Position numbers and translations under genes: made by a program. Below the pieces are notes generated by a model that was given only the letters and a program-made list of their open reading frames with translations, was not told the DNA's origin and did no database searches. From the NCBI GenBank assembly GCA_004123355.1, contig SCHM01000003.1, positions 6,901,058 through 6,965,057 of the forward strand: a stretch of DNA of 64,000 bases, in the 5' to 3' direction. Within the stretch, counting starts at the first letter, position 1. Each line of letters begins with the position of its first letter. This DNA comes from Amphirosellinia nigrospora (taxonomy: Eukaryota > Ascomycota > Sordariomycetes > Xylariales > Xylariaceae). Of the stretch, positions 1 through 8,162 are shown piece after piece.

Positions 1-1135
1 TTCGATACCACGGCAGCGAGTAAGTGCTCTGTTCCCCATACCGCTCTTCCAGGCCCCTTAATAGTTAGCCGGATGTTACTACAAGCGGCAAGCTCTAACA
101 CCTGGGTTATGGCAGATGCTACAGCCTCAGGATTCGAGATCCATAATTTCGTCCAAGCAGTACCGAAAAGGAAGCTTCCTCAAGTATCAAATCCTTTCTT
201 GGGCAACCTAAACATTGCTGCGGCGGAATCATTTATAGATAAGCACCCAGGGCGAGTAAAGTTAATCTTGATCACAATTACAAATAACTGGGCTGCAGCA
301 CAGCCCGTGTCAATGGCAAATATCAAGGGTACGGCCGAGCTAGCGCGCGTAAAGGGGTGCCCTTATTCTTCGACGCTTGTCGATTTGCGGAAAACTCTTG
401 GTTCATTCGTAACTCGGAGGACGGATACACTGATATGCCGGTCGCCGATATCGTACAGGAAATGTTTTCTAACGTGACGGGTTTACTATCAGTTTAAAGA
501 AGGATGGCCTCTCGAACATGGGCGGTGTCCTGTGTTTCCGCGACAAGTCGCTCTTCGCGGAACAGTACCCCGGCATAGGACACCGCTTGAAGCAGCGACA
601 AATATTGTGCTACGGGAACGACTCTTATGGTGGTAGTAAGTGCCGAGAAAGCAAGCTGGATGATCCGTCGAGACTAACGACGATGCCAGTGAGCGGTCGC
701 GATTTAATGACGGCTGTTACCGGTTTGTACGAGGTCATAAAGAGAGTTACCTCCGCAGCCGCGTTTCTCAAGTCCATTGTTTTGCTCAGAAGTTGAGTGA
801 CAGCAACCTGCCAGTTATTTTGCCGGCTGGGGGACATGCAGTCTACCTAGATATGGACGAATTCTTTCACGGCTGTGATAGACAGCTCGGCGACTTTCCT
901 CAGTAGGATTTACCCTAGAACTTCTCAGGAGTATGGGAAGAGCATTCGAATCCGGCCCCTTCGCGTGGGAATGGGATAAGAAACCTCCTGAGGAGCGCAA
1001 GAAAATACCCAATCTAGTTCGATTTGCTGTGCCACGAACGTTCTTTCCGATGCACATATCAATTACACAGTCGCAGCGATCAAGGCGCTTTACGATCGCA
1101 GACACATCCTCCTAATGTTAAGGTCACTAGAGGCA
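1..1135 (+). pseudogene. Tryptophanase/tyrosine phenol-lyase-type beta-eliminating lyase, partial and frame-broken
   Basis: PLP-dependent beta-eliminating lyase family (TnaA/TPL), which splits tryptophan to indole or tyrosine to phenol, with pyruvate and ammonia. The 5' end lies outside the window. Visible family blocks in order: an ITNNWAAAQPVSMANIK block near 283-330, DACRFAEN at 372-395, the PLP-lysine region SLKKDGLSNMGG near 491-526, a YGG|MSGRDLM block, PAGGHAVYLDMDEF near 824-862, and NLVRFAVPR near 1010-1040 followed by an INYTVAAIKALYDRRH-like C-terminal block. The frame changes before DACRFAEN, again before SLKKDG, and at least once more later. A well-formed intron at 636-689 (GTAAGT, CTAAC, CAG) joins YGG to MSGRDL exactly, and another GTAAGT lies at position 20. 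Whether the substrate was tryptophan or tyrosine cannot be told. It sits directly upstream of a prenyltransferase remnant in the same orientation. Family certain; broken state likely, but some breaks may be sequence errors. Confidence 0.85.
636..689 (+). other. Spliceosomal intron inside the lyase gene
   Basis: GTAAGT donor, CTAAC branch sequence and GCCAG acceptor, 54 bp. Removing it restores YGG|MSGRDLM, a conserved stretch of the tryptophanase/TPL family. The length and motifs match the functional introns elsewhere in this window. Confidence 0.8.
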
Positions 1136-1142
1136 AGATATG

Positions 1143-2282
1143 ATGCTTCGCCATTTCTCTTGCGGAATGAAACCCGTTCCTATGGAATGCAACGTTTTAG
1201 GGACGTATCTTGATGAGGCTAGACGCCAAGTATCTCACCTCTCTCGAGCTATTGGGCAAGATGGGGTGTCAAAAAACAAAGTTACTTAACGCTCTCGCCC
1301 TATTAGCTGTGAATGGGGCCAGACAACGATCCCACGATCTATAGACCCCTCCAGTTGGGTTTCTTCTATTAGCAATGACAATTCGCCTTTTGAGTATTCA
1401 ATTCTATTGAATCAGGCAACTGGGGAAGCAGAACTGCGGCTCCTAGTTGATGCTCAACTGAAAAACCACAGCCTGTCACAGCTTCAGGAACGGATATTGC
1501 ATCTGAACGAAGCTATTCTGATGAGACATGGCGCAACGGTTTCGCTCGATAGTTAGAAACTTATCAGGGATATATTTATGCCGAAGGAACCTGAAGGAAA
1601 CTTTGCTGCGTGGCATAGTTGCGCGGTACCGAGACGGGACCCAAGTGGAGGATATATCTCAACCCCTATGCATGGGTAGACGAAATGCGTTGTCTTCATC
1701 CCGGGCGGCATTTGAGCGGTTGGCATGACCAATGAATGGAACTTGGTAGAGAGGACTATGACTCCTACTGACTCGATTGCGTATATCTCACTCGACCTAA
1801 CCCCTAGCCAGGGGAACGCCCGCATCGAGTCTACATGGCTCATGAGGGTCTCAGCACGTGAAATCGCGCGGAAACGAGGCGATTTGCCCACATTCATGCG
1901 CGTTCGATACAACGGTTCTGCGAGTCCATGGCTGGTACCCTGGGGCCTATACAAGAAGCCTCTAATGTCTAGCTTCGCCTCACGAGCAGTACTGGAGTCG
2001 ATCTGTAGGCACGATACACTTCCCAGTGAGTGCTTATGCGAACAATGACGGGGAAATCCAAGACCGCGTTGAACTCTACATGTGCTGAGTGAAATCGGTG
2101 CCCCTATCTTTGCTGCAGAACGCTACAGGAAGGCAGTTAGTGCGGTACAGCGTAGGCCGCTAGCTCAAAGGTGTGGATTACATACCTGGGTCAGCTTGAA
2201 CAGTCCGGACGGTGCGCTGTCTAACGCATTCTACCTTTCGGCAGAACTCTTTTCGCATGAGAGGAGCAATCATTGTGAATGA
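1143..2282 (+). pseudogene. DMATS-type aromatic (indole) prenyltransferase remnant
   Basis: ABBA-fold prenyltransferases move a dimethylallyl group onto indoles or tryptophan. Recognisable blocks lie in the right order but in changing frames: SISNDNSPFEYS near 1360-1395, GEAELRLLVDAQ near 1422-1458, NFAAWHSCAVPRRDP near 1590-1633, WRIYLNPYAW near 1646-1675 (the K/R-x-Y-LNP diphosphate-binding motif), ISLDLTPSQGNARI near 1785-1827 followed by VYMAHEG, PVSAYANNDGEIQDRV near 2022-2072, and the terminal GLHTWVSL...YLSAELF strand near 2170-2250. The PVxAYxxxD and ARIxVYxxH forms resemble bacterial DMATS enzymes more than FgaPT2-like fungal ones. There are at least six frame changes and an in-frame stop near 1553, more than in neighbouring genes. 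Start unclear. It follows the lyase remnant by a few bases, as in bacterial prenylindole loci. The family call is firm; the bacterial affinity is inference from motifs. Confidence 0.75.
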
Positions 2283-2740
2283 GGGAACCTAAGTTTAGGC
2301 GGAGGTTTGAATAGGGGCTGTAACCTATAACCGGCTATTAGCTTTAGGTGCATTTCTATATTGATTTAGCGGCTAACGCAATTTCCTTAACTTACAATAA
2401 ATGGCCAAGCCCCCTCAGCTGCATATACACTTAAAAGACTTTTCTACGCGACTATACACGATATCTGTCACCGGCGTGTCACCTCTGACGACGGGTAGCT
2501 GATACATACGCGCGATAGACTTTCATGAACAAGTCTTAGAGGAGCTAAAATTGTATGCACAAGCTAACCGGCCAGTGAACTCATCTAGACAGCGCCAGCC
2601 GGTCGAGTAGTCTGATTGCATACGCTACAATAAGCTTGTCTTCAACATAGTACCCTAGGCGATTAGTTCATACCCGTGCTTTGACTCGGAAGTTCTTGTA
2701 CTTCGTTCGAACTCTTTGGTTACTACTCTACATTTTCGCA
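2283..2740. other. Non-coding stretch before the methyltransferase
   Basis: No supported gene. Short open frames only; presumably the decayed 3' flank of the prenyltransferase plus the promoter of the next gene. Confidence 0.4.
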
Positions 2741-3540
2741 ATGGCTGAACTGAGAATTGCAGACCCGTCGTTCAACTCCGTCCGCTATCTTCCCACAAAT
2801 GAAGCATACGACAGATGGGCAAAGGTATACGACAGCGATGGCAACTTCCTGCAGGCACTTGACGATCTGGAACTCAAGACACTCTTCCCACGTTTCCTGG
2901 CGTCAATCAAGTCACCTAAGCCCTGGCGTGTTGTGGATTTGGGCTGCGGGACTGGCCGCAACACGGCACTTCTACTAGGGATCCCCGAGAGCGAGATCAT
3001 TGCCCTGGATTCGAGCAGAGGAATGTTAGAAGTAGCGAAGGCTCGGCTTCTTAGCCCGAATTCCGGTCTCGAAGTTGCGGGAGACCAGTCCAATCTCCAC
3101 TTCGACATTTTCGATATGCTAGCCACATCGTCCACCCAGCGTCCGTGGCGCCACACTCAGTGGATGCCATAATTAGTACACTGGTCGTCGAACACATACC
3201 ACTACCAACGTTTTTCGCGCACGTGGCACAGCTTCTTCGCCCTGGGGGTGTGCTGCTCTTGACTAATATGCACTCTGAAATGGGCGGGATCTCACAAGCG
3301 GGGTTCGTGGACACTGCCACAGGCGAGAAGATACGGCCAACGAGCTATGCGCATGCTGTCCAAGAAGTGATAGAGGAGGCGCAGAAACACAGTTTGGAGA
3401 TTGAGACTGACGAGGAAGGGACTGGGATGAGGGAGAGGGCTGTTGATGAGAATATGGTAGAAAAGCTCGGACTTAGGAGCGGGAAGTGGGTTGGTATCAA
3501 ATGCTGGTATGGTGGGATTTTTCGAAAGGTAGAATCGTGA
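2741..3540 (+). CDS. Class I SAM-dependent methyltransferase (one frame break)
   Basis: Small methyltransferase of about 266 residues with a Rossmann fold. Motif I is VVDLGCGTGRNTALLL near 2932-2980; the acidic SAM-ribose residue follows in IIALDSSRGML; the post-motif block VDAIISTLVVEHIPLP and LLRPGGVLLLTNMH (motifs II/III) follow. The start at 2741 (MAELRIADPSF) is preferred to the upstream ATG at 2681 because homologous small methyltransferases begin near the SVRYLPTNEAYDRWA block. The reading frame shifts by one base near 3135, within a tccacccagcg stretch, between FDMLATSS and SVDAII; no intron fits, so this is either a lesion or a sequence error. Substrate unknown. Its position next to the lyase/prenyltransferase remnants suggests, but does not show, a tailoring role. 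Confidence 0.75.
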
Positions 3541-4645: not shown

Positions 4646-6170
4646 TCATACTATCTCGGCCTCAATCACGCTTTCTAATGACGAAGGATGGCACCATATC
4701 TTACAGATTTTAAAGCCGGCAAACTGAAGAAGCTCCCTCCACCTTAATTCTGTTCGCTCAGCTGCTGAGATAAGATGCATAATGCTGACGTCTGCCACGC
4801 TTTGGTACATTGTTGAGCCTGTACTCACGAGCACACTCTCGTAAAGTAGAAGTTTAGAATAACCCTTTCTCATTGCTGCGGCGATGTTCTTGAGAATGCG
4901 GCATGCATCGCCGTCATCCCAGTCGTGAAGAATTGCATGCATAAAGTAAGTTCGGGCTTCTAAACAGTTAGAGGCGTGTCAGCAAGGCAATTACACTCTT
5001 GAAGCTATTAAGATAACGGCACTATAAGACGATGTGGAAGTAGGACACGGATGACTGAGGGTAAGAAACGGGTTCAAGGAGTATCTTTTACCTACCTCTT
5101 ACGGGCTGAGGCGTGAAAAAGTCATGACCCATGATTTGGATCTTTTCACTAACGCTGGCCATCGCGACGACATCTGGTGTGTCTTGTAAGATGAGTTTTC
5201 CGCTGGGCAGGTCTGGATACCGACGAAGCAGACGCTCCAAATCTATACCATGAGCACCTCCAATGTCAACTAGAAGTGCCTCTTCGCCGTTCACGTCAAA
5301 GTCACGCAAGAGGATGCTTGTGTCATAGATCTCAGTCCAGTCTAACTTATAAGCCGCGAGTCCGCGCATGAACCCGATGAAGCTGGCTTGATAGTCAGGA
5401 TTTACGCGGCATCGCTCGAACATTCCCAATCGGTCTGCTGTCAGGTCCATATAGTTCGTATTTTTCGGGTCCAAGGGCTCTGCGTATCCTGTTCGTGACA
5501 AGAAGCGTGGTAGATTCCGACTTGAATCCAGGCCATGATGCGTTCTTTCCAGCGCGTATAACTGTCAGAGAAGATAGGCGGACGCAGGAAGGGACATTGC
5601 AAGCCTTATACTTACCCTGATAATATTGTCTGAGCGACAGACTCTTCCTTCTGACCCAGAGTATCTGAGAAGGCGGTTGCACCGTAGACATCTTCCCTAA
5701 GCTCTTGAATGACGTACTCGGCAGCAAGAAGACGAAGCAAGCGGCCTTACACATATTGTTAGCAGATAATATCATCATCAATACTAAGATGGTGTGTTTC
5801 GAGACGCCATAAACGACGTTTTTCGGATAGAATACGGAGTAAAATTGATTGACCTACGAAGGAGGTTTACATCACATGGTATCCGAGCCAAAGCGTGGAG
5901 CTCTAATAGTGAAATCTCACGGCGCTTGCTTATATACCATGCCTCCCAGATTCCGAGATCTAAGATGACTTGTATCGCGGCGTGCACGTTACCGTTAATC
6001 CAAGAAAGTCTCCACGCTCGTTCGAAGGGTGTCTCCAAGCGGGCGAGCAGTCGTCGCGCGGCTTCTGCGATCAATACACGATCGCCATGTCCACTCGAAT
6101 CACCTTTGAAATTTGACACTTCAGCGCTATCAAGGAGCGCGATGAGCTCCTCGGCCCTGCTAGATGGCAT
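4646..6170 (-). CDS. O-methyltransferase (plant/fungal OMT family, COMT-like)
   Basis: SAM-dependent O-methyltransferase of the type acting on phenolic or polyketide hydroxyls. Exon 1 (6170-5858) carries the N-terminal winged-helix/dimerisation region (LGIWEAW, ISLLELHALARIP). An intron at about 5857-5746 joins DVNLLR to RLLRLLAAEYVIQEL, continuing to GATAFSDTLGQKEES. An intron with donor GTAAGT near 5615 follows. The next exon holds NLPRFLSRTGY and the SAM-binding block LLVDIGGAHGIDLERLL. A last intron ends before ARTYFMHAILHDWDDGDA, the catalytic HDWDD motif, with the terminal GFKICKIW...IEAEIV. The frame across the third exon start does not join perfectly (one base off). All catalytic landmarks are present. 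It shares the accessory block with the prenyltransferase remnant; its substrate is unknown. Confidence 0.8.
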
Positions 6171-8162
6171 TGTGAGGATTTAATGATCTCATACCCCTCG
6201 CGGAAGTTGTAATGACTTCCTTTCTTAATAGGAATATTAAGATGCCAGGTACCATTATGGCTAGCGCGCACCCTAGGTAGTCTTGAGTCTAGACTCGAGA
6301 TTTCATTTTTGAACTGTGGTCCATGGTCATCACGAAGCTTCACCGTTCTTGCCAAAAATGCAAAACCGCAAGAACATCCAACAACCACAAAAAGAGGCTA
6401 ATTGATGCGCTTTCATGACTCACCGCCTTGACCTGCCTTGTGGTGAGCTACGGGTGATTGTAGTATCCCCTACAACAACAAACATGGTGTCGTTGAATCC
6501 ATATCATCGGCCAACTTGACTCTGGTGCGTCTTATGTTAGTAGTTCTCATCGCAATTCCCTTTGCCAAGATTGAGTGGAATCATGGAACTTTGTATTACG
6601 TACAGGGTAAGTTCAACACAACATTGCAAGTATTAATGAGTTGAGGAAAGTGGCCTGATTCTGGTAACTGTAGGATCTTCAATCACCCTGCAGCCGTCAC
6701 TGGTCTCCTGGATATCGCTAATGTAGCATTTTGTCTGGTGCGTCTCCAGCCTACATATCCCGGACATATCTAATGAATGTCGCACTTCAATCAAAATCAT
6801 CTTGAATCACATATATTCTACAACACATTTATATAAGCGCGCTGGAGAATTGGGTCACAATAAGGTCACAAGGTCTGTTCCTCGTCCTCTGACTCAGTAC
6901 AGTGGCCATTACACCAATTGAAATGGCTTTGGAGTAATGTTACTGGGTCAAGGGCGACTGGACTCTCCTATATCGACCTAGACCTGCTCGATTATCGCAC
7001 TCCGGTTGTTCCTGGGACGCCGAATGTCGAGGCAATCCCCCGAATGTCGGCCAAGTACGCTCACAAATTTGAGTGGAAAAGCATCAGCAAAACTCGGGCT
7101 TTCAGAGACAAAAAGGGTCACAAAGAAAATGATGGTTCTTGTACTTAACCATGGCATAGCCGGGTTATAAACATATAAATGATTTCAATGATACGATTAT
7201 TCGAGGATTATGTATCATTTATGTCTGTTTATACAACCTGGGGCCTATGCTTATACCACTGTTTAAGTACTATAGTTACAGTAGACATACCTACTCAGTG
7301 TTTAACCTTCCCAAGTTTTTTCATTTTAAAAAGACTGAATCGCTGCCCGGACCAGACGATGATAGTCTTCGAGGTGGGTGAACCATTCTCAACTGGGGTC
7401 TACTCTACCAGTCATAACTCATACAATAGTATTGCCCACGATAATGCATCCGTATCTGGCGCGTGATGTCATGACTGCACCAATATGAAGTCGTTTGATG
7501 AAACTCGTCTTGGAACGAACGAGATCGATGATTACCAGGTCATGCTCGTCGCCTTGTATTCCCCGGGCAGTTCTGACTTCTATAATATTTGGCCAATTGT
7601 AGCGGACGCCAACCAGCTTAGATTCTTCTCGGTCACGTTAACCTGTGCTGCGTATGGGGCGACGATGCTGATGGGAAATCGCTTGCCGTCCGCGTGACAC
7701 AGCGCCGTTGCTGATTTGAGGGATCGCGGGTTTGTCAATCAGAGTAGTCGGCAAAGGTCTTGTGTGTGTCAGTTGATTCTAGTAGCCGTGACGGATATGA
7801 ATAGAACCTGTGCCATATATCGCGTTGTTTACCTCAATAGTATGACTGCAGCCAACTGTTTGATTTGAACCGAACGATGGCCGGGAATTGGTTATCGGGA
7901 TGAGAGAGGTCGTACGTATAGCAATTATAATTAACTCTTTTGAATATAATCACTCATACAAGATTTATAAAGCTTTAAAGCTAGAAGAGATAAATATAAA
8001 CAACGGGCATAAACCTCTTCTACTAAACAAATCCTATCTTACATCTTTTTGCGGAAGAATGGAGGGGCAACCCCCAAGGCGGGGTACCCCGCACTAGACC
8101 CCTCAGTTAGCGGCCAAAATGGATATAAACCTGTGCTCAGACCAAATTGTTATCAGTTGACC
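6171..8162. other. Gene-poor stretch with intron-like traces
   Basis: No gene can be supported. Around 6530-6720 two short open stretches are separated by a plausible intron (gtaagt at 6606 to ctgtag near 6674), which may be a remnant of a spliced gene. Open frames at 6918-7148 and 7485-7697 match no family I recognise. Confidence 0.35.

Follow-up and report, generated by a model that had tools for sequence, protein, structure and literature searches.

A predicted tryptophanase–DMATS fusion gene in two diverged copies in the fungus Amphirosellinia nigrospora

Pathways that combine a tryptophanase with a DMATS prenyltransferase are known from actinomycetes. Ozaki et al. (2013, PMC3617294) distinguish two kinds of cluster, Type A with a tryptophanase and Type B with an FMO. 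They present the Type A cluster as separate tryptophanase and DMATS genes accompanied by a conservon and, citing Takahashi et al., pair the actinomycete tryptophanase with a tryptophan 6-prenyltransferase, an IptA-like DMATS. We collected 10 plasmid records with a DMATS and examined the regions of eight of them, leaving out two further S. clavuligerus records. A tryptophanase adjoins the DMATS in 2/8 regions, both from Streptomyces (L045 and L128); the two are separate genes, the order is DMATS then lyase, and the tryptophanases are of the short form. On a Calothrix plasmid (L131, 3815-7627) a flavin monooxygenase lies two genes beyond a cyanobacterial DMATS, so that a neighbourhood resembling Type B occurs outside the actinomycetes too.

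Here we describe a gene of the fungus A. nigrospora that resembles the Type A pair in uniting a tryptophanase with a bacterial-type DMATS, presumably making a prenylindole from tryptophan. It differs from that pair in being fused, with the lyase first, in having a lyase of the long form and in carrying probable introns. The stretch analysed, called the window throughout, is 64,000 nucleotides long (C5:6901058-6965057) and belongs to an assembly of 48.1 Mb in 11 contigs. Positions 1-2282 of the window hold the 3' three-quarters of a single gene that starts ~0.8 kb upstream of the window. Our main reading, to which we give a probability of roughly 60%, is that one fungal gene, present as two diverged copies on contigs C5 and C7, encodes a predicted bifunctional protein of ~880-900 residues in which a long-form tryptophanase forms the N-terminal part and a bacterial-type DMATS the C-terminal part, and that this protein would function as a prenylindole synthase.

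Both copies emerged from profile searches of the whole genome. Tryptophanase models matched two loci, the one on C5, where matches set in 0.34 kb upstream of the window, and a second at C7:860466-862201. DMATS models matched one piece directly 3' of each lyase locus, so that the fungus has a second lyase-DMATS pair on C7, together with four further, ordinary DMATS genes elsewhere in the genome. One of these ordinary genes, C6:717855-718981 (L020), is likewise split by stops and frames. Within the window the unaltered open frames of both families lie on the + strand without a gap between them. The C5 and C7 copies align along their length in a pairwise alignment, and their lyase halves are 67.5% identical; blastn aligned the lyase half only, at 69-74% identity, plus 41 bases at 90%. 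Both loci are frame-broken in this assembly, with no intact copy among the two. At third codon positions GC reaches 0.51 in C5 and 0.635 in C7; five host frames span 0.47-0.61. The coordinates of the features in and next to the window are collected in Table 1.

Table 1. Parts of the predicted fusion gene at the C5 locus, in window positions unless a contig is named.
Feature	Position	Strand	Basis
5' part of lyase	upstream of window, from about C5:6900260	+	genome profile search, alignment
3' part of lyase (long-form tryptophanase) domain	1..1181	+	profile matches; aligned to column 531/534
Probable intron	20..115	+	GTAAGT, CTAAC, CAG; absent from C7 copy; ends by eye
Probable intron	636..689	+	54 bases, GTAAGT..CTAAC..CAG; C7 appears to have one at the same place; ends by eye
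Fusion joint, single open frame	1140..1287	+	conserved lyase C-terminus LRHFSCGMKPVP, then ~6 linker residues, then DMATS N-terminal helix GTYLDEARRQVSHL
Predicted DMATS (bacterial-type aromatic prenyltransferase) domain	1200..2282	+	runs to stop codon of its last open frame

A conserved cluster around the two copies was looked for and rejected. A blastn comparison of 84 kb around C5 with 29 kb around C7 gave four matches, all in the lyase half. In tblastx of the same regions, among the matches listed, a coherent run covers the fusion gene only and the rest are short and scattered. Elsewhere in the window we observed a methyltransferase in two overlapping frames with one apparent break (2651-3540), pieces of an O-methyltransferase (Methyltransf_2) in several frames on the - strand (4649-6179) and a Zn2-Cys6 regulator, which like the probable introns is in keeping with a fungal source.

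Judged by its sequence, the lyase half is a long-form tryptophanase. Unaltered open frames of the window match Beta_elim_lyase at 8.8e-8 and 3.5e-6, and those of positions 1-1112 match tryptophanase models. The NCBIfam tryptophanase model NF009709 / PRK13238 is matched by several separate frames, with E down to 2.8e-13 in C5 and 4.4e-43 in C7; because the frame is broken, every single piece stays below the 285-bit cut-off of NF009709. When frameshifts were tolerated, the alignment followed lyase columns 9-531 of 534 in C5 and 9-529 in C7, scoring 1044 and 1128 against 27-36 (maximum 36.1) in six shuffles of the C5 stretch. The equivalents of E. coli K270, which we take to be the PLP lysine, and of Y74, Y307, R419 and H463, which we also take to be catalytic, are conserved in both copies. 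The equivalent of R230, another position that we assume to be catalytic, is present in C5 and lies at a break in C7. The aligned path of C7 also departs at two residues beside the PLP lysine. At the site of E. coli TnaA V394, where tyrosine phenol-lyases presumably have an Arg, C5 carries Phe and C7 carries Ala, and we rejected a tyrosine phenol-lyase. A threonine aldolase is ruled out by the NCBIfam matches of the lyase pieces, which are to tryptophanase and TPL models apart from one unrelated match at E 0.032. The proposal of the first-pass annotation that this lyase is a tryptophanase and not a threonine aldolase is upheld by these matches and by the Phe and Ala residues. Differences between the C5 and C7 lyase halves amount to 0.264, 0.183 and 0.629 at codon positions 1, 2 and 3 (493 codons), from which it follows that the lyase halves diverged under purifying selection. 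The corresponding values for the DMATS halves, 0.473, 0.337 and 0.654, come from 315 codons that are partly misframed.

Among solved structures the best match of the lyase is PDB 8sl7 (3e-43), a long-form tryptophanase, and the best of 74 plasmid records is from Fusobacterium (40.9% over 93%), with a Streptomyces Type A lyase at 33.5% over 68%. From a scan of a genome collection we kept 80 of 158 relatives, belonging to Lokiarchaeia, other archaea, spirochaetes and Bacillota and sharing 41-49% identity with a 251-residue piece of C7; the two search patterns of the scan favour the long form, so these relatives are not an unbiased census. Long-form tryptophanases are frequent in Lokiarchaeia (L046-L080); no other relatives in the scan, two spirochaetes apart, come as close in identity to the fungal lyase. 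No relative was found in viral contigs. The long-form tryptophanases (8sl7 and those of Lokiarchaeia, Spirochaetota, Bacillota and Fusobacterium) have the same extended architecture as the fungal lyase. A tblastn search of nine DMATS proteins against the sequence around the 80 lyase loci (1.26 Mb; 3.5-20.7 kb each) gave no match, and the same search recovered three Streptomyces loci that had been added as positive controls.

We built a lyase tree of 33 rows, in which the two copies of the fungus were set beside 27 of the 80 loci, one row each from Fusobacterium and E. coli and two from Streptomyces. The two fungal lyases group together at 99/99 and lie on the long-form side of the tree; a 100/100 split, which involves three short-form rows only and long branches, divides them from E. 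coli and Streptomyces. The fungal copies fall outside all other sampled long-form rows, whose own grouping is weak (84/68). Given this outermost position and the program's long-branch warning, the tree points to no particular archaeal or bacterial donor of the lyase. The fungal lyase is nonetheless not the form that is paired with DMATS in Streptomyces, and for that reason the pairing of lyase and DMATS looks convergent with the Streptomyces pairs.

The DMATS half, by its profile scores and its place in a tree, is of the bacterial type, unlike the four ordinary DMATS genes of the same fungus. Its pieces match the DMATS model TIGR03429 at 2.8e-5 (C5) and 6.6e-6 (C7) and PF11991 at 0.0052 (C5), all under the cut-offs; the match in the window lies in the unaltered frame 1290-1553. 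Frameshift-tolerant alignment to a bacterial DMATS profile covered most of the domain and scored 126 for C5 and 212 for C7, where ten shuffles of the C7 stretch stayed at or below 31.2, and a fungal DMATS profile gave 40 and 34 against at most 28.3 in the shuffles. In a search of solved structures with E up to 1, the C7 frame matched seven DMATS chains, the best at 4.3e-5, and two unrelated chains at E 0.3-0.4, and the C5 frame matched three chains, the best at 0.036. All DMATS chains matched by the fusion, namely those of PriB, CymD and the 6-dimethylallyltryptophan synthase 7w8u, are also matched by a Streptomyces DMATS, whereas an ordinary DMATS of this genome matches 16 other chains (E up to 0.01), none of them shared with the fusion. 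We assign these chains a bacterial or fungal origin mainly from their names (3i4x and 8day, for example, presumably being fungal); fungal DMATS such as these two belong to the same superfamily as that of the fusion.

A DMATS tree of 14 rows places the fusion with eight bacterial DMATS, apart from the fungus's own four at 100/99, in a small sample with two long rows and with residue calls taken from the bacterial profile, which favours a bacterial placement. When a joint bacterial and fungal profile was used, only the C7 row stayed, with 135 residues and still on the bacterial side; the other copy aligned over 32 residues, and the power of this comparison is accordingly low. The first-pass annotation had looked to phylogeny to tie each half to bacterial homologues: the DMATS does fall on the bacterial side, but the lyase stands apart from the Streptomyces lyases. 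The DMATS of the fusion also branches outside the group in which the Type A and Type B members lie.

These placements bear on whether the fungus received an actinomycete Type A pair directly. Such a transfer would account for a bacterial-type DMATS and for the presence of the same two families, but it is the least probable of the explanations that we considered. The lyases of Streptomyces and those of the fungus lie on separate branches, with the reservation about rows and branches given above, the gene order is reversed, the fungal gene has probable introns, and the DMATS lies outside the group of Type A and Type B members. A direct copy of the Type A pair is disfavoured above all by the lyase tree and the gene order. 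The bacterial layout suggested by the first-pass annotation is likewise not what we see, since the Streptomyces pairs are separate genes in the opposite order with lyases on another branch. As a fused fungal gene whose lyase belongs elsewhere in the tree, the locus falls outside Type A.

The first-pass annotation had also described tandem lyase and DMATS genes on the same strand with almost no gap. The pairing and the strand are borne out by the Beta_elim_lyase, tryptophanase and DMATS matches, but a tandem arrangement is not, as the C5 frame crosses the joint. The joint was studied with a frameshift-tolerant alignment to a profile of 902 columns, composed of lyases, a six-column spacer and bacterial DMATS. 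Both copies followed this profile from lyase column 9 to near the DMATS end, over 842 columns in C5 and 847 in C7. In C5 a single frame is open from the conserved C-terminus of the lyase into the N-terminal helix of the DMATS. In C7 one frame break falls at the joint, between the lyase end and the DMATS frame; the lyase's own frame reaches a stop a few codons beyond the joint, the aligned path there has no stop, and one open frame leads from the linker to the DMATS core (SNDHSPYEYS). The linker is equally long in both copies, about six residues. Among the lyase relatives, 26/27 of those compared (archaeal and bacterial) end within about 14 residues of the place equivalent to the joint, where the fungal protein continues. 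The open C5 frame, the equal linkers and the common end point of the relatives together argue that the two domains were most likely already fused in the ancestral gene, some six residues apart. Two separate genes lying very close together would fit the Streptomyces arrangement, and an error-prone assembly and the break at the C7 joint could be read in the same way. We consider this very improbable, however, as the C5 frame is open across the joint, the linker is of one length in both copies and the halves lie too close for a terminator and a promoter to fit between them.

The fusion gene is interrupted by many frame breaks. Probable introns with consensus ends, two at sites shared by both copies and two in C5 only (ends placed by eye), account for some of the apparent breaks, including those at the two introns in the window. 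Outside intron edges there are 15 breaks in C5 (8 in the lyase and 7 in the DMATS, one of the 15 upstream of the window) and 18 in C7 (8 and 10). On the C5 path 13/15 breaks are single-base losses, and across the two lyase halves 15/16 are, with no in-frame stop in either. Three in-frame stops occur, all in the C5 DMATS part, one of them, by eye, in a misframed stretch.

To judge what such breaks mean in this assembly, we turned to its chaperones. HSP70 and chaperonin genes are split in the same way, each fragment overlapping the next by a few bases and the profile match carrying on from one to the other (for example C8:855379-857197 and C1:6115480-6116998). Over the 7,088 codons of 14 chaperone genes we counted 35 breaks, a figure that takes in cases at intron edges and amounts to ~1.65 per kb, and a single in-frame stop; 13 of these genes were aligned, the 14th (L143), an open frame of 508 codons, served as the reference, and weaker HSP70 and chaperonin loci were left out. 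Two other families served as further controls of frame integrity: the sugar transporters (Sugar_tr, 9 of 272 candidates scored) gave no overlapping splits, a result that counts against our main reading, and tRNA-synt_1 gave a mixed picture. Several long open frames of the window are intact, which indicates that assembly errors are unevenly spread. Many small indel errors nevertheless seem to be present in the assembly, and other apparent pseudogenes in the window may for this reason be artefacts.

The alternative to assembly error, in line with the decay that the first-pass annotation saw here, is that these are real pseudogenes, an ancestral fused gene having been duplicated, kept long in service and then lost to decay in one or both copies. 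In both copies breaks are about four times as dense as in the chaperones on average, at 15 in 842 codons for C5 and 18 in 847 for C7, and they are of a different mix of types, with 15/35 single-base losses in chaperones against 15/16 in the lyase halves. The three stops in the C5 DMATS part point the same way, as does the loss of conserved residues. In 16 relatives 161 lyase columns are invariant; of those covered, 138/159 are unchanged in C5 and 133/157 in C7. Every relative, when left out in turn, retains 95-100% and has thus lost fewer than either copy. Against decay, essential genes of the same assembly are frame-broken too, and one of the 14, L150, is about as dense in breaks (8 in 457 codons, ~5.8 per kb) as the C5 copy (5.9 per kb). 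Neither lyase half has an in-frame stop, and the examined catalytic residues are kept. Of the invariant-column losses, some of which lie beside breaks or introns, 16 are common to both copies, with 5 in C5 only and 8 in C7 only. On balance we regard real pseudogenes as the less likely reading, but a serious one. Errors of the assembly probably lie behind a large part of the frame breaks; by our reading they account for much of the damage, perhaps for all of it, and real decay of one or both copies may have contributed as well.

If the gene is a fusion as we propose, its two domains could act in sequence. The DMATS domain would transfer the dimethylallyl group of DMAPP onto the indole ring of L-tryptophan to give prenyl-tryptophan, and the PLP lyase domain would then break prenyl-tryptophan down by beta-elimination into prenylindole, pyruvate and ammonia, the reaction proposed for Type A clusters. 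The reverse order is also possible, with indole formed first and prenylated afterwards. In either case the fusion would hold both activities together. The substrate, prenyl position, order of steps, product and present-day activity are all features that we infer for this protein. A more specific reading is that a single-chain prenylindole synthase evolved independently of the actinomycetes by fusion of a long-form tryptophanase with a bacterial-type DMATS, that both of its paralogues work to this day, their substrate pockets differing by Phe or Ala at the V394 site, and that the damage is assembly error. We put this forward tentatively, as something just short of an even chance.

The C7 fusion copy is followed, ~1.8 kb downstream and on the same strand, by an FMO-like gene (C7:855490-857580, L040/L041). 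In an alignment made without a shuffle control, that gene matches a Calothrix FMO of 512 residues over columns 6-505, with seven frame breaks. No FMO counterpart stood out near C5, and we therefore make no claim that the C7 gene belongs to the pathway.

In titles and abstract openings of the literature, we recognized no paper on a tryptophanase-DMATS fusion or on a fungal pair of these families, and in our analysis the combination was otherwise met only as separate adjoining genes in Streptomyces. The locus carries a caution, in that what is read as decay from this assembly can be assembly error. If our main reading is correct, prenylation and carbon-carbon cleavage of tryptophan would be joined in one bifunctional chain, in a fungus whose genome bears a bacterial-type DMATS alongside ordinary fungal ones. 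The gene would then be a convergent counterpart of a pathway that actinomycetes are described as encoding in separate genes, and it would offer those working on natural products and biocatalysis a single gene to test.
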